A stretch of DNA of 64,000 nucleotides from Marivita lacus (GTDB lineage: Bacteria; Pseudomonadota; Alphaproteobacteria; Rhodobacterales; Rhodobacteraceae), in assembly GCF_014637725.1 (NCBI RefSeq), contig NZ_BMFC01000004.1, forward strand, positions 186,001 through 250,000, given 5' to 3'. Positions 20,612 to 48,740 of the stretch are shown one piece after another (the stretch's first letter is position 1; each line of letters opens with the position of its first letter). The position numbers and the translations under genes are program-made. The notes beneath the pieces were generated by a model. That model had not been told where the DNA came from. It did not search any database and was given only the letters and a program-made list of their open reading frames with translations.

Positions 20612-21121
20612 TCAGCCCCCCGGCTGCTGATCCAGGAAGATGAGCGGATCGACATCGTCGGGCAACTCGTCGAGCCACTCGTCGGTCGCAGCCTGCTCCT
20701 CTGCCTCGAAGATTTCGGGATTCCAGATCTGGAACGTGTCGCCCGCACCGATAAAGAACGCCTCGGTCGACAGCCCGATCTTCTCGCGCAGCTTGGCGGG
20801 CAGCACCAGACGCCCGGTCTCGTCAACGCTGGTCGCGTGTGATTGCCCGTTGAACAGGCGTTGCAGCATCTTGCGCTCGACCGACCCACGCGGGAGCGCC
20901 TCGATCTTCTCGTCCACCTCTTCGATGGCCGCGACGGTATAGCATTCAAGGTATTTGCGGCGCTTGTCGCCATAGACGATGACCAGTTCGGGGTGCTGAC
21001 CTTCGGTAAACGCCGGATCGCCAGCCTCAAGCACACGGCGAAACGAGGCCGGGATAGACACCCTGCCCTTGCCATCAACCTTGTGATGACTTTCACCTCT
21101 GAACCTTAGCCTGCGGCTCAC
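20612..21121 (-). CDS. mraZ: Transcriptional regulator MraZ
   Basis: A 169-residue protein with two SpoVT/AbrB-like repeats: RGESHHKVDGKGRVSIPASFR near the N-terminus and ATSVDETGRLVLPAKLREKIGL in the second half. MraZ binds direct repeats upstream of its own operon and regulates the dcw genes. GTG 21121 (V-S-R-R-L-R-F-R-G-E-S) matches the family N-terminus; a reading from 21187 would start within the loop of a large hairpin. An acidic tail (about 145-169) is longer than in E. coli MraZ. Confidence 0.92.
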   Translation of the reverse strand: MSRRLRFRGESHHKVDGKGRVSIPASFRRVLEAGDPAFTEGQHPELVIVYGDKRRKYLECYTVAAIEEVDEKIEALPRGSVERKMLQRLFNGQSHATSVDETGRLVLPAKLREKIGLSTEAFFIGAGDTFQIWNPEIFEAEEQAATDEWLDELPDDVDPLIFLDQQPGG

Positions 21122-21154
21122 TGCCCTACCGGTCCTTTCACCACGATGATCCCT

Positions 21155-21217
21155 GGAAACGGAAACGGCGGGTTGATCTGCTGCCACTGATCAACCCGCC
21201 GTCCGTGTCCCGTTTCC
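21155..21217 (-). promoter_or_regulatory. Large inverted repeat in the mraZ leader
   Basis: Arms 21166-21178 and 21189-21201 (CGGCGGGTTGATC and its exact reverse complement) flank a 10-base loop. A second outer pair, 21155-21162 and 21210-21217 (GGAAACGG / CCGTTTCC), extends the structure. It ends 34 bases before the mraZ start. It could be an operator or a leader hairpin; no U-run follows on the mraZ strand, so it is not a simple terminator. Confidence 0.7.
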
Positions 21218-21800
21218 GGGAAGTCCGACTGCGCGCGCCACCTGGGGGGATGTCTGCTCGCCCGCGCGCCGGATCTCTGTCGTCAGATGAAAGCGGGTGC
21301 CTGTATGAAACCTGCTTTTTTTATAATTTGGATACCGCGTCGAGGTCTGTGCGCCTCGTTTGCCGTTCCTGCTCTCATCTCGTAAGACAGGGATGCCATG
21401 GGAAAGCATGGGTCGCAACAGTTTTTTTATGGGAATTCACGCCTACATGCTGCTAGCAAAGTCTGGCTGGAACCACATCTGGTAGTAAATTATTTCAATT
21501 TCGTCAAAATACACCGCATGATGCGAATTCGACCACAACATATAGCGCATCCATTGGCGCAGGATCAATGCCCATAATTTCCCACAGCCGCAAGAAACAA
21601 ACCAAGAACATTACAAATCCGAAACAAACTTACCCGTCAAAATCGCTCATTTTCAGGGAAATCCATCCGAATCACTCATTTGGTTCGACATGTCGCAGGC
21701 CCGTGGCCCCACCCGTCCCATCAATTCCCATGCCCATCCCGTCCCTGCCCTCGGATCGGCAATGCTTGCAATGCATGTCGCCCGGTTGTACGCCAAAACC
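21218..21800. other. Intergenic region between mraZ and the cobalamin riboswitch, no gene seen
   Basis: This stretch is more AT-rich than its surroundings and should hold the divergent promoters for the dcw cluster (minus strand) and the B12 operon (plus strand). I find no convincing ORF, RNA gene or clear promoter boxes. A weak hairpin (GCGGGT...ACCTGC followed by seven T, near 21289-21322) has no obvious upstream transcript to stop. Confidence 0.6.
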
Positions 21801-21957
21801 GTCATGGTCCGGGCAATCCCCGGTGAAAAGGGAACGTGGTGCAACGCCACGACTGCCCCCGCAACTGTAAGCGGCGAGCGTGTTCGGCATATGCCACTGG
21901 GAAACCGGGAAGGCCCGAGCCACGCAAAGACCCGCAAGTCAGGAGACCTGCCGTGAC
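21801..21957 (+). promoter_or_regulatory. Cobalamin riboswitch
   Basis: An adenosylcobalamin-type aptamer. P1 pairs GTCATGG (21801-21807) with CCGTGAC (21951-21957, one G-U). Conserved core strings include GGTGAAAAGGGAAC (21822-21835), CGACTGCCCCCGCAACTG (21850-21867) and the B12 box AGTCAGGAGACCTGCC (about 21937-21952). Downstream hairpins (GACGGT/ACCGTC, then CTTTGGG-TAGG-CCCAAAG at 22025-22042) lie before the Shine-Dalgarno of btuC and could form the switching platform. It should repress the btuCDF-exbBDD-tonB operon when B12 is plentiful. Confidence 0.95.
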
Positions 21958-22075
21958 AGATCACCCTACACTCGCGCGGGGCGCGCGGGATGTGACGGTA
22001 CTCCGGCGTGGTGACAGTCACCGTCTTTGGGTAGGCCCAAAGGCATGATATGTTGTTCGCGCGGGAGGCAGAGCG

Positions 22076-26988: not shown

Positions 26989-28056
26989 TCAGGCCATGCC
27001 ACCTTCGATCAAACGAGAAGCCAGCACCGCGTAGGCATCCGCCATCGGCCCGTCGCCCGCCGCGATCGGCACGCCGCCATCGCCGGCCAGCCGGGTATCC
27101 AGATCCAGCGGCAATTGCGCCAGCAGCGGAATGCCCCGCGCCTCGGCCTCGGCCACGGTGCCGCCCGACCCGAAGATATGGCTTTGCCCGCCGCAATGCG
27201 GACAGGTGAACACGGCCATGTTCTCGATCAGCCCCAGCACCGGGGTCTTGAGCGTGTCGAACATGTCGAGCGCCTTGCGCGCATCCAACAGCGCCACATC
27301 CTGCGGCGTGGACACGACAATGGCCCCCGACACCTGCGCCTTTTGACAGAGCGTCATCGCCACGTCGCCGGTCCCCGGTGGCAGATCAACGATCAGCACG
27401 TCCAGATCGCCCCAGGCCACCTGCCCCAGCATCTGCTGCAACGCGCCCATCAGCATCGGCCCGCGCCAGACCACGGCCTTGTCCTCGGGCAGCATCAACC
27501 CGATGGACATGAGCGTGACACCATGCGCGGTCAGCGGAAGGATCGTCTGGCCATCCGGACTTTCGGGTTTTTGCGAAACGCCCATCATGCGCGGCTGGCT
27601 CGGGCCGTGGATATCGCCATCCAGCAAGCCGACCCGCCGACCGGCCCGCGCGAGCGCCACGGCAAGGTTCGAGGACACGGTGGATTTGCCGACGCCGCCC
27701 TTGCCCGACCCGATCGCGAGGATGCGCGCCACCCCCGGCGGCTTGAGCGATCCGGCCTGCGGCTTCGGGTGACCGCCGATCTTCAAGCCCTTCGGCGGTG
27801 CCGCCGCCGGACCATGCGCGGTCAGCGCCGCCGACGCCTGCGTCACGCCGGGCAAGTCGGCCACAACGGCCTCAGCGGCCTTGCGCACAGGCTCCATCAG
27901 CCGCGCGATCTCGGGCGACGGGGCCTCGATGACAAAGCGCACCACCGACCCATCCACCTGAATCGCCCGCACGAGATCGGCCGAAATCAGGTCTTTGCCA
28001 TCGGGAATCGCCACGCGGGACAAGGCTTCGCGAATCAGTTCCGGGGTGACGGACAT
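26989..28056 (-). CDS. mrp: Iron-sulfur cluster carrier protein Mrp/ApbC (P-loop NTPase)
   Basis: A 355-residue Mrp/NBP35-family ATPase. An N-terminal DUF59-like domain (about 1-75: VTPELIREALSRVAIPDGK) precedes the deviant Walker A AIGSGKGGVGKSTVSSNLA, then DLDVLIVDLPPGTGD and the cluster-binding CPHCGG. It is thought to assemble and transfer Fe-S clusters. ATG 28056 matches the family start. It stands alone, convergent with tonB. Confidence 0.94.
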   Translation of the reverse strand: MSVTPELIREALSRVAIPDGKDLISADLVRAIQVDGSVVRFVIEAPSPEIARLMEPVRKAAEAVVADLPGVTQASAALTAHGPAAAPPKGLKIGGHPKPQAGSLKPPGVARILAIGSGKGGVGKSTVSSNLAVALARAGRRVGLLDGDIHGPSQPRMMGVSQKPESPDGQTILPLTAHGVTLMSIGLMLPEDKAVVWRGPMLMGALQQMLGQVAWGDLDVLIVDLPPGTGDVAMTLCQKAQVSGAIVVSTPQDVALLDARKALDMFDTLKTPVLGLIENMAVFTCPHCGGQSHIFGSGGTVAEAEARGIPLLAQLPLDLDTRLAGDGGVPIAAGDGPMADAYAVLASRLIEGGMA

Positions 28057-28159
28057 GCCCAACCTTTCATCTTTGTGACCCACAGATGACAGCCACGCCG
28101 CGATGCTTCAACCGCCTGCCCGGGAATCGGGCCTGTTAGCGCAAAACGCACAAATTTGA

Positions 28160-28188
28160 ACCAATTGGTCTATGCAATTGCTGCATAG
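28160..28188. promoter_or_regulatory. Adjacent palindromes upstream of the DUF1127 gene
   Basis: ACCAATTGGT (28160-28169) abuts CTATGCA-ATTGC-TGCATAG (28170-28188, perfect 7-base arms). They lie about 95-120 bases before the DUF1127 start and are candidate operators. In Rhodobacter sphaeroides the equivalent locus is under RpoHI/RpoHII; I could not identify a convincing heat-shock-sigma promoter here. Confidence 0.45.
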
Positions 28189-28282
28189 CAGCGTTGAGGC
28201 AATTAACCATTGTGCATGCGCAGCATTTGCCTATCTTTGTATCAACCGAACGGAAACAAACAAAAGCGAACAGAGCAGACAG

Positions 28283-28501
28283 ATGGCATACGAAACAAAC
28301 AGCCTCGGCGCGGTCAGCACCGGCATCATGGATCGGGTCAACACACTGATCGCAGGATATCGGGTCAAAGCCGCCCGCCGCAAGATTTACCGTGACACGG
28401 TGCGCGAACTCAGCGCGCTGTCACACCGCGAACTGTGCGACTTGGGATTGAACGAATCCGAGATCAAGCGCGTTGCGTACCAAGCAGCTTACGAAAGCTG
28501 A
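28283..28501 (+). CDS. DUF1127 small protein (CcaF1-like), host gene of the sRNA array
   Basis: A 72-residue protein whose C-terminal 40 residues (RKIYRDTVRELSALSHRELCDLGLNESEIKRVAYQAAY) are the DUF1127 arginine-rich motif. In R. sphaeroides the DUF1127 protein CcaF1 is encoded just upstream of, and co-transcribed with, the CcsR1-4 small RNAs and is an RNA-binding protein affecting their maturation. The same arrangement is seen here, so I infer a CcaF1-like role. ATG 28283 is chosen over the longer reading because the residues before it are unlike the family. Confidence 0.88.
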   Translation: MAYETNSLGAVSTGIMDRVNTLIAGYRVKAARRKIYRDTVRELSALSHRELCDLGLNESEIKRVAYQAAYES

Positions 28502-28547
28502 CGAAATTCGGTGAGCATGGCCTTCGGGCCCCTCACCACACGGTCTC

Positions 28548-28619
28548 GGCATCCTCTCCTCCTCCCTGGATGTCGTGAACTTGACGGTGGCACCTCTCCT
28601 CCTCCCTGGTGTCACCGTC
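28548..28619 (+). ncRNA. CcsR/cuckoo-type small RNA, copy 1
   Basis: Two consecutive hairpins, each with the loop TCTCCTCCTCCCT that contains the CCUCCUCCC anti-Shine-Dalgarno motif: 28548-28574 (GGCATCC / GGATGTC) and 28583-28619 (GACGGTGGCACC / GGTGTCACCGTC, one G-U pair). This is the structure described for alphaproteobacterial CcsR (cuckoo) sRNAs. Ends are those of the hairpins; the mature RNA may extend a few bases. Confidence 0.85.
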
Positions 28620-28651
28620 ACACTTATTCGGGCTTCGGCCCACACGAGCTC

Positions 28652-28723
28652 GGCATCCTCTCCTCCTCCCTGGATGTCGTGAACTTGACGGTGGCACCTC
28701 TCCTCCTCCCTGGTGTCACCGTC
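28652..28723 (+). ncRNA. CcsR/cuckoo-type small RNA, copy 2
   Basis: An almost exact repeat of copy 1 displaced by 104 bases: hairpins 28652-28678 and 28687-28723 with the same CTCCTCCTCCC loops. The linker to copy 1 includes GGGCTTCGGCCC, a C(UUCG)G tetraloop hairpin that may help separate or process the units; before copy 3 the tetraloop is TTTG instead. Confidence 0.85.
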
Positions 28724-28755
28724 ACACTTATTCGGGCTTTGGCCCACACGAGATC

Positions 28756-28830
28756 GGCGCCCTCTCCTCCTCCCTGGGTGCCGTGAACTGGAACGGTGGT
28801 GCCTCTCCTCCCTTGGCACCACCGTTTTTT
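28756..28830 (+). ncRNA. CcsR/cuckoo-type small RNA, copy 3, ending in a rho-independent terminator
   Basis: First hairpin GGCGCCC (28756-28762) / GGGTGCC (28776-28782) with the CTCCTCCTCCC loop. Second hairpin AACGGTGGTGCC (28792-28803) / GGCACCACCGTT (28815-28826), with a shorter loop still containing CTCCTCCC, followed by T residues. The second stem is perfect here while those of copies 1-2 carry a wobble, so the last unit doubles as the terminator of the DUF1127-sRNA transcript. Copy 3 differs from the other two in the stems but keeps the loops. Confidence 0.85.
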
Positions 28831-28976
28831 GTTTTTTGGAGGTCCGCGCAGCTCTTGACCCGTGGCTCCACATTTTCCCGCATTGTTTGGTTTTCCTTTG
28901 CCCCCCCTTTCGCTAGATGAGGCGCAACGGAACATCTGCGGCCCGAGAGGGCGGCACAGAAGCGGGAATTGACCCC

Positions 28977-31913
<2,937 letters not shown>

Positions 31914-43278: not shown

Positions 43279-46200
43279 ATGCCAGACTTCAAGAAAATCC
43301 TCATTGCCAACCGGGGCGAAATTGCAATCCGCATCATGCGGGCCGCCAATGAGATGGGCAAAAAGACGGTCGCCGTCTATGCCGAGGAAGACAAGCTGGG
43401 CCTGCACCGATTCAAGGCGGACGAAGCCTACCGCGTCGGAGAGGGTCTGGGACCGGTCGCGGCCTATCTGAGCATCGACGAGATCATCCGCGTCGCCAAG
43501 AAATCGGGCGCGGACGCGATCCATCCGGGCTACGGCCTCCTGTCGGAGAACCCGGCCCTCGTGGATGCCTGCGTTGCCAACGGCATCACCTTTATCGGCC
43601 CGCGCGCCGAGACCATGCGCGCGTTGGGCGACAAGGCCAGCGCGCGGCGTGTGGCGGTCGAGGCCGGTGTGCCGGTGATCCCGGCAACCGAGGTGCTGGG
43701 CGACGATTTCGACGCCATCAAAAAGGAGGCCGAGGCGATAGGCTTTCCGCTGATGCTCAAGGCGTCCTGGGGGGGCGGCGGTCGGGGGATGCGCCCTGTC
43801 AACAACGCCAAGGAGCTTAAGGAAAAGGTGCTCGAGGGTCGCCGCGAGGCCGAGGCCGCGTTCGGCAATGGCGAAGGCTATCTCGAGAAGATGATCATCC
43901 GCGCCCGCCATGTCGAGGTGCAGATCCTCGGCGACAAGCAGGGCAACATCTATCACCTCTACGAGCGCGACTGCTCGGTCCAGCGCCGCAACCAGAAGGT
44001 GGTGGAGCGTGCCCCTGCCCCCTACCTGTCGGAAGCGCAGCGCGAAGAGCTGTGCGAACTGGGCCGCAAGATCTGCGCGCATGTGAATTACGAATGCGCG
44101 GGCACTGTCGAATTCCTGATGGATATGGATGACGGTAAATTCTACTTCATCGAAGTGAACCCCCGCGTGCAGGTGGAACACACCGTCACCGAGGAAGTGA
44201 CCGGCATCGACATCGTGCAGGCGCAGATCATGATCGCCGAGGGCAAGTCGCTTTCCGAGGCAACGGGCAAGGCCTCGCAATACGACATCCGCCTGAACGG
44301 CCACGCGCTCCAGACCCGCGTGACGACCGAGGATCCGCAGAACAACTTCATCCCGGATTACGGCCGGATCACCGCCTACCGCTCGGCCACGGGCATGGGC
44401 ATCCGTCTGGATGGTGGCACGGCCTATGCAGGCGGCGTGATCACGCGCTATTACGACTCGCTGCTGACAAAGGTGACCGCCTGGGCGCCGACCCCGGAAA
44501 AAGCGATTGCGAGGATGGACCGCGCGTTGCGCGAATTCCGGGTGCGGGGTGTGTCGACCAACATCGCGTTTGTGGAAAACCTGCTCAAGCACCCGACCTT
44601 CCTGAACAACCAGTACACGACCAAGTTCATCGACGAGACACCGGAGCTGTTCCAGTTCCGCAAGCGTCGCGACCGGGGCACCAAGGTGCTGACCTATATC
44701 GCCGACATCACAGTGAACGGCCATCCCGAGGTGGCGGGCCGTGCCAAGCCGCATCCCGATCTGAAGCCCGCCCGCGCGCCGAAATCGCGGGTGGACACGC
44801 CGCCGCCGGGCACCAAGACGCTACTGGACGAAAAGGGCCCGCAGGCGGTGGCCGATTGGCTGGCGGCGCAGACCGAAGTGTTGATCACCGACACGACGAT
44901 GCGCGACGGGCACCAGTCGCTGCTGGCAACGCGGATGCGGTCGATCGACATGATCACCGTGGCCCCGGCCTATGCCGCGAACCTGCCGCAGCTCTTCAGT
45001 GTCGAATGCTGGGGCGGTGCGACCTTTGACGTGGCCTACAGGTTCCTTCAGGAATGCCCGTGGCAGCGCCTGCGCGACCTGCGCGCGCGGATGCCCAACA
45101 TCATGACGCAGATGCTGCTGCGCGGCGCGAACGGCGTGGGCTACACCAACTACCCCGACAACGTGGTGCAGTTCTTTGTCAAACAGGCCGCCGAGACCGG
45201 GGTCGATGTGTTCCGCGTGTTCGACAGCCTCAACTGGGTCGAAAACATGCGCGTCGCGATGGATGCGGTGCTGGACACGAACCGCGTTCTGGAAGGCACG
45301 ATCTGCTACACCGGCGATCTGAACGATCCGGCGCGGTCCAAGTACGACCTGAAATACTATGTCTCGATGGGCAAGGAACTGCGCGACGCCGGATCGCACA
45401 TCCTCGGGCTGAAAGACATGGCCGGGCTGATGAAACCTGCCGCCGCCGGGCCGCTGATCAAGGCGCTGAAGGAAGAGGTCGGCCTGCCCGTCCACTTCCA
45501 CACCCATGACACGTCCGGCGCGGGCATCGCCACGATCATGGCCGCCGCCGCTGCGGGCGTCGATGCGGTGGACGCGGCGATGGATGCGCTGTCGGGCAAC
45601 ACGTCCCAGCCGACGCTGGGATCGGTGGTCGAGGCGCTGCGCCACACCGAGAGGGAAACGTCGCTGGATATCTCCGCCATTCGCGAGATCAGCAATTACT
45701 GGGAAGCGGTGCGCGGGCAATACGCGGCCTTCGAAAGCGGCCAGCAGGCCCCGGCGTCCGAAGTCTACCTGCACGAGATGCCTGGCGGGCAATTCACCAA
45801 CCTCAAGGCGCAGGCGCGGTCGCTTGGTCTGGAAGAGCGCTGGCACGAGGTGGCGCAGACCTATGCCGACGTCAACCAGATGTTCGGCGATATCGTCAAG
45901 GTCACGCCGTCCTCCAAGGTGGTGGGCGACATGGCGTTGATGATGGTGTCACAGGGTCTGACCCGCGCCGATGTGGAGGACCCCGAAAAGGACGTGTCCT
46001 TCCCCGATTCGGTGGTGGACATGATGCGCGGCAATCTGGGCCAGCCTCCGGGCGGGTGGCCCTCGGCGATCCAGAAGAAGATCCTCAAGGGCGAGACAGC
46101 CTTCACCGACCGCCCCGGCTTGCATGCCGCCCCGGTGGACATCGAGGAAACCCGCGCGAAGGTCATCAAGGAGCTGGAAGGCAAGGCGATCGACGACGAG

Positions 46201-46722
46201 GATCTCGCCGGATATCTCATGTATCCCAAGGTGTTCCTCGATTACATGGGACGCCATCGCACCTACGGCCCGGTGCGGGTGCTGCCGACGCACACGTTCT
46301 TTTACGGCATGGAACAGGGCGACCAGATCAGCGCCGAGATCGACCCCGGCAAGACGCTCGAGATTCGCCTGATCGCGGTGGGCGACACGCAGGACGATGG
46401 CGAGGTGCGGGTGTTCTTCGAGCTGAACGGCCAGCCGCGCACGATCCGCATTCCCGACCGCAAGGCCAAGGCCACCACGGCGGCGCGACCCAAGGCGGAA
46501 GTGGCCAACCCCAACCACATCGGCGCGCCGATGCCGGGGGTCGTGGCCTCGGTCGTCGTGACGGCGGGGGCGAAGGTCAAGGAGGGCGACCTGCTGCTGA
46601 CCATCGAGGCGATGAAGATGGAAACCGGCCTGCACGCCGAGCGCGACGCGGTGGTGAAGGCGGTGCATGTGCAGGCGGCGGCGCAGATCGACGCGAAGGA
46701 TTTGTTGATCGAGTTGGAGTGA
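43279..46722 (+). CDS. pyc: Pyruvate carboxylase
   Basis: A 1147-residue single-chain enzyme. Biotin carboxylase domain about 1-455 (KILIANRGEIAIRIMRAA; MLKASWGGGGRGMR; FIEVNPRVQVEHTVTEEVTG). Carboxyltransferase/HMGL-like domain about 535-1000 (LITDTTMRDGHQSLLATRMR; KDMAGLMKP). C-terminal biotinyl domain with the attachment Lys in TIEAMKMETG. It converts pyruvate, ATP and bicarbonate to oxaloacetate. An AGGA site precedes the ATG. GC is about 67 percent in a hand count of one line, against about 40 percent for the next gene. Confidence 0.98.
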   Translation: MPDFKKILIANRGEIAIRIMRAANEMGKKTVAVYAEEDKLGLHRFKADEAYRVGEGLGPVAAYLSIDEIIRVAKKSGADAIHPGYGLLSENPALVDACVANGITFIGPRAETMRALGDKASARRVAVEAGVPVIPATEVLGDDFDAIKKEAEAIGFPLMLKASWGGGGRGMRPVNNAKELKEKVLEGRREAEAAFGNGEGYLEKMIIRARHVEVQILGDKQGNIYHLYERDCSVQRRNQKVVERAPAPYLSEAQREELCELGRKICAHVNYECAGTVEFLMDMDDGKFYFIEVNPRVQVEHTVTEEVTGIDIVQAQIMIAEGKSLSEATGKASQYDIRLNGHALQTRVTTEDPQNNFIPDYGRITAYRSATGMGIRLDGGTAYAGGVITRYYDSLLTKVTAWAPTPEKAIARMDRALREFRVRGVSTNIAFVENLLKHPTFLNNQYTTKFIDETPELFQFRKRRDRGTKVLTYIADITVNGHPEVAGRAKPHPDLKPARAPKSRVDTPPPGTKTLLDEKGPQAVADWLAAQTEVLITDTTMRDGHQSLLATRMRSIDMITVAPAYAANLPQLFSVECWGGATFDVAYRFLQECPWQRLRDLRARMPNIMTQMLLRGANGVGYTNYPDNVVQFFVKQAAETGVDVFRVFDSLNWVENMRVAMDAVLDTNRVLEGTICYTGDLNDPARSKYDLKYYVSMGKELRDAGSHILGLKDMAGLMKPAAAGPLIKALKEEVGLPVHFHTHDTSGAGIATIMAAAAAGVDAVDAAMDALSGNTSQPTLGSVVEALRHTERETSLDISAIREISNYWEAVRGQYAAFESGQQAPASEVYLHEMPGGQFTNLKAQARSLGLEERWHEVAQTYADVNQMFGDIVKVTPSSKVVGDMALMMVSQGLTRADVEDPEKDVSFPDSVVDMMRGNLGQPPGGWPSAIQKKILKGETAFTDRPGLHAAPVDIEETRAKVIKELEGKAIDDEDLAGYLMYPKVFLDYMGRHRTYGPVRVLPTHTFFYGMEQGDQISAEIDPGKTLEIRLIAVGDTQDDGEVRVFFELNGQPRTIRIPDRKAKATTAARPKAEVANPNHIGAPMPGVVASVVVTAGAKVKEGDLLLTIEAMKMETGLHAERDAVVKAVHVQAAAQIDAKDLLIELE

Positions 46723-46723
46723 G

Positions 46724-46748
46724 GGTGGGGTGTGGGTGGGGTGTGGGG
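46724..46748 (+). repeat. G-rich tandem repeat / potential G-quadruplex after pyc
   Basis: Two 11-base units (GGGTGGGGTGT) plus a further G4 run directly follow the pyc stop codon, giving at least four runs of three or more G separated by 1-3 bases. This is the classic G-quadruplex pattern on the coding strand. Confidence 0.75.
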
Positions 46749-46780
46749 CTCGAATCAACCATTCCTTTGGGAAGCAAAAA

Positions 46781-46808
46781 TTGAATGCAGATGCTGCTGA
46801 GCATTCAA
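46781..46808 (+). promoter_or_regulatory. Inverted repeat in the leader of the SIR2-like gene
   Basis: TTGAATGC (46781-46788) and GCATTCAA (46801-46808) are perfect reverse complements separated by 12 bases, which contain a smaller GCTGC/GCAG pairing. The repeat ends 28 bases before the ATG. It could be an operator overlapping the promoter or an RNA hairpin limiting expression of a toxic product. Confidence 0.6.
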
Positions 46809-46836
46809 AAAGAACTTTTCTGAAAAGGATAAGTTG

Positions 46837-48438
46837 ATGATTAACTTGCAAGAGGAGACACAGAAACTTCTCAAATCAAAGTCTGGATCTCCATTTCTTT
46901 TTGTTGGTTCGGGCTTCTCTCGAAGATATATCGGAATAGAAGATTGGAGAGGATTACTAACCCGATTTTGTGACGATATATTGGAATTTGATTACTACTC
47001 CGCGACAGCGAACGGAAACCTTCCAAAAGCAGCGACTCTCTTGGCGAAGGATTTCCATGAGATATGGTGGAAGGAAGCAAAGTATGAGAACTCCAGAAAA
47101 AAATACAAAGACAGCACAACTTCGATTTCCGACGCCTTAAAAAACGAAATTTGTGAGTACATTGGAAGCGTAGACACCACTGGGAACTCAGCTAAAAATA
47201 TTCAGGCGGAACTCTCAATCCTAAAAGAGATAAACGTTGACGGGATTATAACGACAAATTGGGACTTTCTTCTTGAGGAAGTATTTCCTGAGTATAGAGT
47301 TTTTATCGGACAAGAAGAGTTACTTTTCTCAAATCCACAAGCGATTGCAGAGATATACAAAATCCATGGATGCGCGAGCAGACCAAGTAGTTTAGTCCTC
47401 ACTGAAGAAGATTACGAAGATTTCGAAGGTAAGAACCCATACCTGGCCGCTAAGCTCATCACGCTCTTTATCGAACATCCTATATTTTTTATCGGATATT
47501 CAGTCACCGACCCACATATACAAACAATTATTTTCTCAATTGCCCAATGCCTCACAGAAGAGAAATTAGAGAAATTCAGCGAAAACCTCATTTTTGTTCG
47601 AAGGGCAAACGGTGAAAAGGAGTCCATGCAAAAACTAAACTTCAGCACAGCTGGTCGAAACATAATTGCTACTGTACTCGTAACCGATGACTTCTCAAAA
47701 ATATACTCAGCAATAAACGAGAATAAACGCAAGATTCCTGCCCGAATACTGAGATACTGCAAGGAGCAAATGTATGAGCTTGTCAACTCAGAAGAACCAG
47801 AGAAAAAACTTTCAGTAATCGACATCGATGAACTCGACACTAGCGATGAGGTGGAGTTTTTAGTTGGCGTGGGCGTCGCCCAAGCGCACTCTGAAGAACA
47901 AGATAAACTTGTTGTACAAACGGAAAAGGCGCTTGCTGAAAGCGGGTATCAGGGCGTGAACCTGTCAGATATATATACAGATTTCACAAAAGCAAAATCA
48001 GTTTTCGACGCCGAAAAGCTATTGAAACTCGCCTTTCCTGTGTTTCGACGATCAAATACAACTTTTATTCCTGTATTCAGGTACCTCCATGAAGTAGGAA
48101 TAACCAATGCTCACGAACTTGATAAGTCAACTTACACCTCGGCCAAGATCATTTGCAAGAAGATGGCCAAAAAGAAATACGCGCTTTCATCTTATAAAAG
48201 TCAATACGACAATTATTGGTCGAGCAAATCCACATCTGAAATAATCCGTGAAGCTGATCCACAAAAGGTGGCAATATTTGTCACTCATCAAGACCCGAAG
48301 GACGTTGAACTTGACGCACTCAAGGAGTTCTTGTCGGTACACAAGCCAGATGACTTTGGAGACCCGTACTCATCATACTACCGAAAGCTTTGTTCCTTTT
48401 ACGACAGGCTGGCGTACGGGTTTGATCTCAAGGCTTAA
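46837..48438 (+). CDS. SIR2-like domain protein, candidate stand-alone anti-phage NADase
   Basis: A 533-residue protein. Residues about 15-240 are a SIR2-like fold: FLFVGSGFS (G24-S28), DGIITTNWDFLLEE (T139-N141-W-D143), YKIHG with H177, LTEEDYEDF (D192), and FFIGYSVTDPHI (G220-S222). These correspond to NAD-binding and catalytic positions in SIR2 NADases of defence systems. Residues about 260-295 (LVTDDFSKIYSAINE) match the usual end of that domain. The C-terminal 230 residues, helical and charged, are not recognised and may be the phage sensor. AAAAGGAT precedes the ATG. It is AT-rich (near 40 percent GC in two lines), stands alone between pyc and two tRNA-Gly genes, and so looks horizontally acquired. 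Confidence 0.78.
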   Translation: MINLQEETQKLLKSKSGSPFLFVGSGFSRRYIGIEDWRGLLTRFCDDILEFDYYSATANGNLPKAATLLAKDFHEIWWKEAKYENSRKKYKDSTTSISDALKNEICEYIGSVDTTGNSAKNIQAELSILKEINVDGIITTNWDFLLEEVFPEYRVFIGQEELLFSNPQAIAEIYKIHGCASRPSSLVLTEEDYEDFEGKNPYLAAKLITLFIEHPIFFIGYSVTDPHIQTIIFSIAQCLTEEKLEKFSENLIFVRRANGEKESMQKLNFSTAGRNIIATVLVTDDFSKIYSAINENKRKIPARILRYCKEQMYELVNSEEPEKKLSVIDIDELDTSDEVEFLVGVGVAQAHSEEQDKLVVQTEKALAESGYQGVNLSDIYTDFTKAKSVFDAEKLLKLAFPVFRRSNTTFIPVFRYLHEVGITNAHELDKSTYTSAKIICKKMAKKKYALSSYKSQYDNYWSSKSTSEIIREADPQKVAIFVTHQDPKDVELDALKEFLSVHKPDDFGDPYSSYYRKLCSFYDRLAYGFDLKA

Positions 48439-48569
48439 CTGATAAATACATAAGAGAGAATCTGAGGCGCGTGACGAGAATGGCTACGGACTAGCCTCCC
48501 CCACCCCCAAATTTTCCTCTTGCACCCTGCCCCGACACACACTAAATCCGCCCATACCAGATTGGCAGC

Positions 48570-48644
48570 GCGGGCGTAGCTCAGGGGTAGAGCATAACCT
48601 TGCCAAGGTTAGGGTCGGGCGTTCGAATCGCCTCGCCCGCTCCA
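48570..48644 (+). tRNA. tRNA-Gly (anticodon GCC), copy 1
   Basis: Acceptor GCGGGCG / CGCCCGC, D-arm GCTC...GAGC, anticodon stem TAACC / GGTTA with loop TTGCCAA (GCC, Gly), T-arm GGGCG TTCGAAT CGCCT, discriminator T and encoded CCA. Confidence 0.96.
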
Positions 48645-48665
48645 ATCCGGTACGACGATGGCAGC

Positions 48666-48740
48666 GCGGGCGTAGCTCAGGGGTAGAGCATAACCTTGCC
48701 AAGGTTAGGGTCGGGCGTTCGAATCGCCTCGCCCGCTCCA
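48666..48740 (+). tRNA. tRNA-Gly (anticodon GCC), copy 2
   Basis: Identical in sequence to the copy 96 bases upstream, including the TGGCAGC bases just before the 5' end, so the pair is a recent tandem duplication. It lies 93 bases before hisB. Confidence 0.96.

Follow-up and report, generated by a model that had tools for sequence, protein, structure and literature searches.

The SIR2-family gene and its family assignment

We analysed a window of 64,000 nucleotides from Marivita lacus (contig NZ_BMFC01000004.1, positions 186,001 to 250,000), in which a SIR2-family gene of the PDC-S25 family was located at 46837..48438 on the forward strand, between a pyruvate carboxylase gene and a tRNA-Gly pair. 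Coordinates refer to the window unless another contig is named, and the gene parts and flanking genes given below lie on the same strand. A single long open reading frame (ORF) was translated into 533 residues from the ATG at 46837, its stop codon ending at 48438; a TTG at 46834 is an alternative start. An earlier reading of the DNA by a model without database searches (the sequence-only reading) had placed the gene at 46781-48438. One long ORF was indeed present there, but 46781 is out of frame and an in-frame stop codon lies upstream, so the start was moved to the ATG or TTG. The G+C content (GC) was 41.5% for the gene and 41.2% for the interval 46781-48438, against 64.5% for the window outside 46723-48503; elsewhere, the lowest value among 1.6-kb windows (step 100 bases) was 58.1%. 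The GC of about 40% first proposed for the gene was thus close, whereas the 67% proposed for the flanks was too high (about 64-65%). The description of the gene as the only clearly foreign-looking one was nearly right, milder dips to 56-57% GC being found at 21001-22000 and 28001-29000.

The window protein matched the PDC-S25 profile PDLC04968 (PADLOC-DB 2.0.0) with an E-value of 1.5e-170 over residues 3-528 and profile positions 9-515 of 517, and a second PDC-S25 profile with an E-value of 6.4e-41. Both profiles matched all 53 sequences of the main alignment, the window protein included. The PADLOC profiles for ThsA, LmuA and Dsr2 matched over parts of the SIR2 region only, and none of the nine PADLOC models matching at E-values up to 1 was a PD- model. 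In Pfam, SIR2_2 was found at residues 136-258, and in NCBIfam only Dsr2 was hit, below threshold (E 2.2e-5, 22.7 bits against a cut-off of 1400, residues 137-228). Because the match to the 517-position profile runs nearly end to end and full-length relatives exist at 35-79% identity, the ORF is judged not to be a chance one. Compared with a 78%-identical relative, the proportions of nonsynonymous and synonymous differences were 0.131 and 0.97; the synonymous sites were saturated, and hence no ratio of the two rates was taken. A promoter and terminator scan gave about as many sites as a shuffled sequence.

With its full-length profile match and single-gene architecture (as in 42 long-subtype loci, some truncated by contig ends), the window protein is a full-length member of PDC-S25, a family already catalogued as a phage-defence candidate. 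The part of PMC10855318 that we consulted describes the PDC systems of PADLOC as putative, without experimental validation, and found via "guilt-by-embedding". A full-text search for "PDC-S25", covering few subscription papers and no preprints, gave no paper with that name. Relatives may have been described under other names: the portions of PMC9122126 and PMC9519451 that we consulted mention, respectively, uncharacterised SIR2 systems in P4 satellites and a Sir2 homologue among validated Escherichia coli systems, either of which could be a PDC-S25 relative. The suggestion that the system is undescribed thus has to be narrowed; the family is listed in PADLOC-DB, while no paper naming it was found and its C-terminal domain has no assigned family. 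The sequence-only reading had nevertheless picked out a genuine single SIR2 gene of foreign origin and had judged its likely role well.

SIR2 domain and predicted catalytic residues

The SIR2 domain of the NADase (NAD+-hydrolysing) type comprises codons 1-299 (46837..47733), and residues 1-299 of the structural model matched the SIR2 domains of ThsA, KomC and DSR2. The motifs named in the sequence-only reading were located at residues 24 (GSGFS), 139 (TTNWD), 175 (KIHG) and 220 (GYS), and its numbering of N141 and H177 was correct. N141 (codon 47257..47259), the predicted catalytic asparagine, aligned with the TTNyD motif of KomC and ThsA, and H177 (codon 47365..47367), the predicted catalytic histidine, aligned with the position that is substituted in the KomC entry H146N. 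Both were invariant in all 52 sequences with a residue at the position, window included.

The zinc module of canonical sirtuin deacylases consists of two CxxC pairs. CxxC was absent from the whole window protein, and none of 53 sequences carried two CxxC in the first 300 residues; on this ground a canonical sirtuin deacylase was rejected. According to the part of PMC12700824 that we consulted, ThsA and FAM118 also lack this module. The window protein thus combines features of SIR2_2-type immune NADases, namely a predicted SIR2 fold, the catalytic Asn and His and the missing zinc module. Furthermore, several entries among the solved relatives nearest by profile are named NADases or NAD(+) hydrolases. 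A search of a viral structure library gave as its best match only a Marseillevirus Sir2 protein (E 0.023).

Connector and C-terminal domain

The SIR2 domain is followed by a connector (codons 300-361, 47734..47919), conserved over residues 300-350, and by a C-terminal domain (codons 362-533, 47920..48435), modelled as all-helical and proposed as the sensor. Conservation was calculated from 36 sequences kept from 42 after an 80% identity filter. The mean column information was 2.36 bits for residues 1-299, 2.18 for 300-350 and 1.69 for 362-525, and the mean pairwise identity was 33% (1-112), 41% (113-299), 32% (300-350) and 22% (362-533). By these two measures, the connector at 300-350 comes close to the enzyme in conservation, and the C-terminal domain ranks lowest. 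The predicted local distance difference test score (pLDDT) fell below 50 at residues 324-329 and 338-367; an earlier model from a shallow 11-sequence alignment was poor (pLDDT 63.1).

The sequence-only reading recognised no domain in the C-terminal part and proposed searches of residues 240-533. The SIR2 domain extended to residue 299, residues 362-533 were helical, and no convincing family match was found. A 42-member profile of the C-terminal domain gave four matches to Protein Data Bank sequences, none convincing (E 0.028 or worse), and against Pfam four families each appeared in one of the 42 members and none in the window protein. The 50 best structural matches extended to model residue 309 at most, and one domain can fill such a list. 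In these searches the C-terminal part thus matched no recognised family, and it is a putative sensor.

Two subtypes of PDC-S25 were distinguished, a long one of about 530 residues, to which the window protein belongs, and a short one of about 450 residues, with different C-termini. The connector could be recognised in each of them, its homology between the two being moderately supported (48 columns, P 2.6e-4, HHalign probability 42%).

Insertion site

The gene lies in a foreign segment at 46723..48503 (42.1% GC). The upstream flank is a pyruvate carboxylase gene (43279..46722), named by reading its translation, not by a scan. Downstream lie two identical tRNA-Gly(gcc) genes (48570..48740), at 48570-48644 and 48666-48740, the pair that the sequence-only reading had placed next to the gene. 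In the closest relative (G014), identity was 94% up to the carboxylase stop codon, broke off there and resumed at 48504 with 96.6%; unrelated DNA replaces exactly 46723-48503, leaving an 860-base gap without a trusted long gene. All 16 other genomes of the genus examined had the tRNA-Gly pair as well as hisB (identified by reading). Pyruvate carboxylase was found within the stretch compared in six of the 16; in another eight the contig ended first, and in G001 and G010 it was absent from about 16 and 19 kb of upstream DNA.

The gap was compared in the seven genomes of the genus in which the two flanks are linked, loci L117, L127, L131, L132, L138 and L137 included, which makes for few sites. 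The gap of G003, from another species of the genus (L137 12298-17747), contained an AT-rich pair of GmrSD_N (43% GC) and RiboL-PSP-HEPN (38% GC) genes. The former matched NsnA (E 3e-70) and PD-T4-2_A (E 3.6e-56), and the latter had no PADLOC match. A sulfotransferase occupied the gap in G006, ORFs of 57-64% GC that in G015, and an ORF of 347 residues without a family match that in G008. G016 carried a 453-residue ORF of 44% GC (L127 1705-3063, forward strand) without a Pfam or PADLOC match, whose PDGLI...EAK stretch we take to resemble a PD-(D/E)XK nuclease. One 61%-GC gene, the same protein by reading, was common to the gaps of G003 and G016, and the gap content is thus not wholly different. 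Taken together, the site appears to be small and variable and to have received defence-type cargo on at least two occasions, possibly as a small defence hot spot. A tRNA gene as attachment site found no support, the sole long direct repeat (82 nt) being the tRNA-Gly duplication itself and the right border ending 66 bases short of the first tRNA gene.

Distribution

The search of genome contigs gave 11 loci, two at 78-79% identity (Phaeobacter and Pseudotabrizicola) and nine at 41-47%. Among the 61 nearest genomes, five had any match at E 0.001 or better, full length only in the genome of the window. At E 1e-40, the family profile matched two of 385 genomes of the class and five of 398 of the phylum, the own genome counted in both. 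On plasmids, 170 of 72,556 records matched at E 1e-5 and only three covered at least 80% of the query, which indicates that many are more distant or short-subtype SIR2 proteins. Eight of 50,697 phage records matched, four of them BK5-T entries and none covering 80%, and viral contigs gave 59 loci, plus five of streptococcal type. A single-sequence viral scan found nothing, and two later single-sequence scans returned the query alone. In E. coli, the short-subtype gene was matched in 267 of 5,426 genomes, and in 254 the match spanned 80% or more of the query. Such patchy presence is what would be expected of a mobile accessory gene.

The short subtype (loci L074-L092, L030, L133 and L134) occurred in E. 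coli chromosomes and viral contigs, and its profile reached human FAM118B (E 4.7e-4). The Pseudotabrizicola relative (L002 8001-9586) matched in two separate stretches (residues 1-434 and 456-529) and its frame ends early at 489 residues, which reflects either decay or a sequencing error. The genome of the window also contained a second, distant SIR2-like match (L017, G000:C20:37281-37487) in an open frame of 1,052 residues, about the size of the DSR type.

Genomic context of relatives

Of 12 annotated regions of our choosing (eight long and four short subtype, by reading), 11 list a recombinase, integrase or transposase, and six list a restriction enzyme or DNA methyltransferase. In BK5-T the relative sits between a lysin and an integrase, and in SVep1 between a repressor and an integrase. 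On viral contigs of at least 15 kb (50 of the 59 loci, the nine on shorter contigs being dropped), the gene lay at most 3 kb from a contig end in 30, compared with 9.2 expected by random placement, a contig end not necessarily being a prophage end. By subtype, this position was found for 26 of the 36 long members and for 4 of the 14 short ones. Nine of the 30 edge loci look like copies of one element, with the same match range and near-equal E-values; counted once by hand, they leave 22 of 42. Fifteen loci had a near downstream end, and 14 of these carried an ORF between the gene and that end. The longest such ORF was chosen at each locus, and the ten of the 14 that were scanned comprised six tyrosine integrases, two serine recombinases, one PrkA kinase and one unmatched ORF.

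Among 816 neighbouring ORFs of the 42 long-subtype loci, five families were common to at least three loci, by reading a serine recombinase, an integrase, a repressor and two phage lysis-type genes; no recurring partner gene was found among them. The 120 ORFs around the 11 genomic relatives matched 61 PADLOC families at E 1e-10, and the 25 families listed included Shango SngA/B/C, PDC-S60, PDC-S47 and spbK; BrxD/BrxHI matches may be the same Shango proteins. Of those placed, a TIR/spbK-like gene adjoins L003, PDC-S60 lies near L005, a weaker LmuA match adjoins L001, and L004 has a neighbouring SMEK-domain protein matching an Aga restriction endonuclease profile. Many relatives thus adjoin integrases, recombinases, restriction-modification or other defence genes, a context that supports a defence role.

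Proposed mechanism and alternative explanations

A stand-alone anti-phage NADase of SIR2 type, as the sequence-only reading had proposed, is well supported by the predicted fold, by the invariance of the catalytic residues and by the prophages and defence genes found around relatives; depletion of NAD+ and phage protection are predicted. We consider it likely that the product of the window gene is a self-contained NADase acting by abortive infection, its C-terminal domain sensing infection and its connector coupling this to the enzyme. From the pattern of conservation and the model, we infer effector, switch and sensor roles for the SIR2, connector and C-terminal parts, and we likewise infer NADase activity, NAD+ loss, oligomerisation, C-terminal sensing, its trigger and phage protection. 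The N-terminal SIR2 domain would be an NAD+-hydrolysing effector, kept off as long as the cell is healthy. A phage component, or a change that the phage induces, would be detected by the helical C-terminal domain, and the conserved connector would relay the signal, probably via oligomerisation, to the SIR2 domain, which would then drain the NAD+ of the cell before the phage matures. The gene was probably gained horizontally, and recently, as a single-gene cassette at the variable site that pyruvate carboxylase and the tRNA-Gly genes flank.

Several points weigh against this reading. The connector part at 338-361 was modelled with low confidence, and position and lower conservation are the sole grounds for the C-terminal sensor role. 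The excess at contig ends came from the long subtype and was small in the short one. Six of ten neighbouring proteins checked singly had no PADLOC match; the tally of defence neighbours has no matched control, and some PADLOC profiles may match ordinary proteins. Housekeeping genes adjoin some relatives (pheS at L002, recA at L007), as they do the window gene, which indicates that isolated insertions also occur. A literature search for experiments on the family, covering few subscription papers and no preprints, gave no published test or mechanism.

The alternative that survives best, although unlikely, is a Thoeris-like effector in which the region beyond the SIR2 domain would bind a small signalling molecule produced at another place in the cell instead of sensing phage itself. 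The ThsA profiles were the best named-system matches after PDC-S25, one ThsA alignment continues past the SIR2 domain and across the connector as far as the VGVG stretch, and a TIR gene adjoins L003. However, no partner recurred across the 42 loci, the best stretch of the ThsA profile PDLC00407 covers residues 118-280 only (profile 87-259 of 478), and the C-terminal domain, modelled as all-helical, would be unlike the alpha/beta SLOG domain of ThsA. Less probable still is that the SIR2 domain acts on something besides free NAD+, for example on a target protein by ADP-ribosylation or deacylation, while still serving in conflict or regulation. The SIR2 fold binds NAD+ and does not by itself fix the reaction; the missing CxxC pairs, as in ThsA and FAM118, and the names of the nearest solved relatives argue otherwise. 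We give little credence to the gene serving a mobile element, by prophage exclusion of rivals or competition between plasmids or elements, and persisting by that benefit and not for the host. The positions in BK5-T and SVep1 and the plasmid copies fit it, but such a benefit is compatible with anti-phage activity, and no integrase or other mobile gene was seen beside the window copy on a reading, not a scan, of its neighbours. That the gene is an ordinary accessory one of metabolism without a defence role, to which the housekeeping neighbours of the window copy would point, is barely credible given the patchy distribution and the prophage-edge context of relatives.

We tentatively propose that PDC-S25 proteins are one-polypeptide immune receptors with a constant SIR2-plus-connector core and an exchangeable, previously unseen C-terminal sensor, either the long helical form ending in a YDxLKYG-like motif or another domain in the short form; the connector is partly unfolded in the monomer model despite its conservation, and it might be an assembly switch that becomes ordered only once the sensor has been triggered. 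NADases of the SIR2 type are found repeatedly in bacterial immunity and have relatives in vertebrates (FAM118), and a sensor encoded within the same short protein would make it easy to study how SIR2 is held off and switched on. PDC-S25 relatives occur in prophages, on some plasmids and, as the short subtype, in E. coli, yet the literature covered above held no reported test.

Comparison with known systems

In Thoeris ThsA, the best-matching named system after PDC-S25, the SIR2 domain is followed by SLOG, whereas the window model is helical after it, with 324-329 and 338-367 poorly modelled, and no conserved ThsB-like partner was found. As the ThsA profile was not matched across the whole protein, ThsA membership was rejected. 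DSR2 and DSR1 have about 1,000 residues compared with 533, and sequence similarity is confined to the SIR2 core; DSR2 membership was rejected on the sub-threshold NCBIfam score over residues 137-228. KomC, the SIR2 NADase of the Kongming system, appears in KomBC complexes, and its solved chain of 264 residues lacks such a C-terminal domain. The alignment with the vertebrate SIR2_2 protein FAM118B ends at model residue 300, and the C-terminal domain has no counterpart in it. With PDC-S25, homology extends over residues 3-528, and a recurring partner is lacking. The main interest of the window protein is its unassigned C-terminal domain and its conserved connector.
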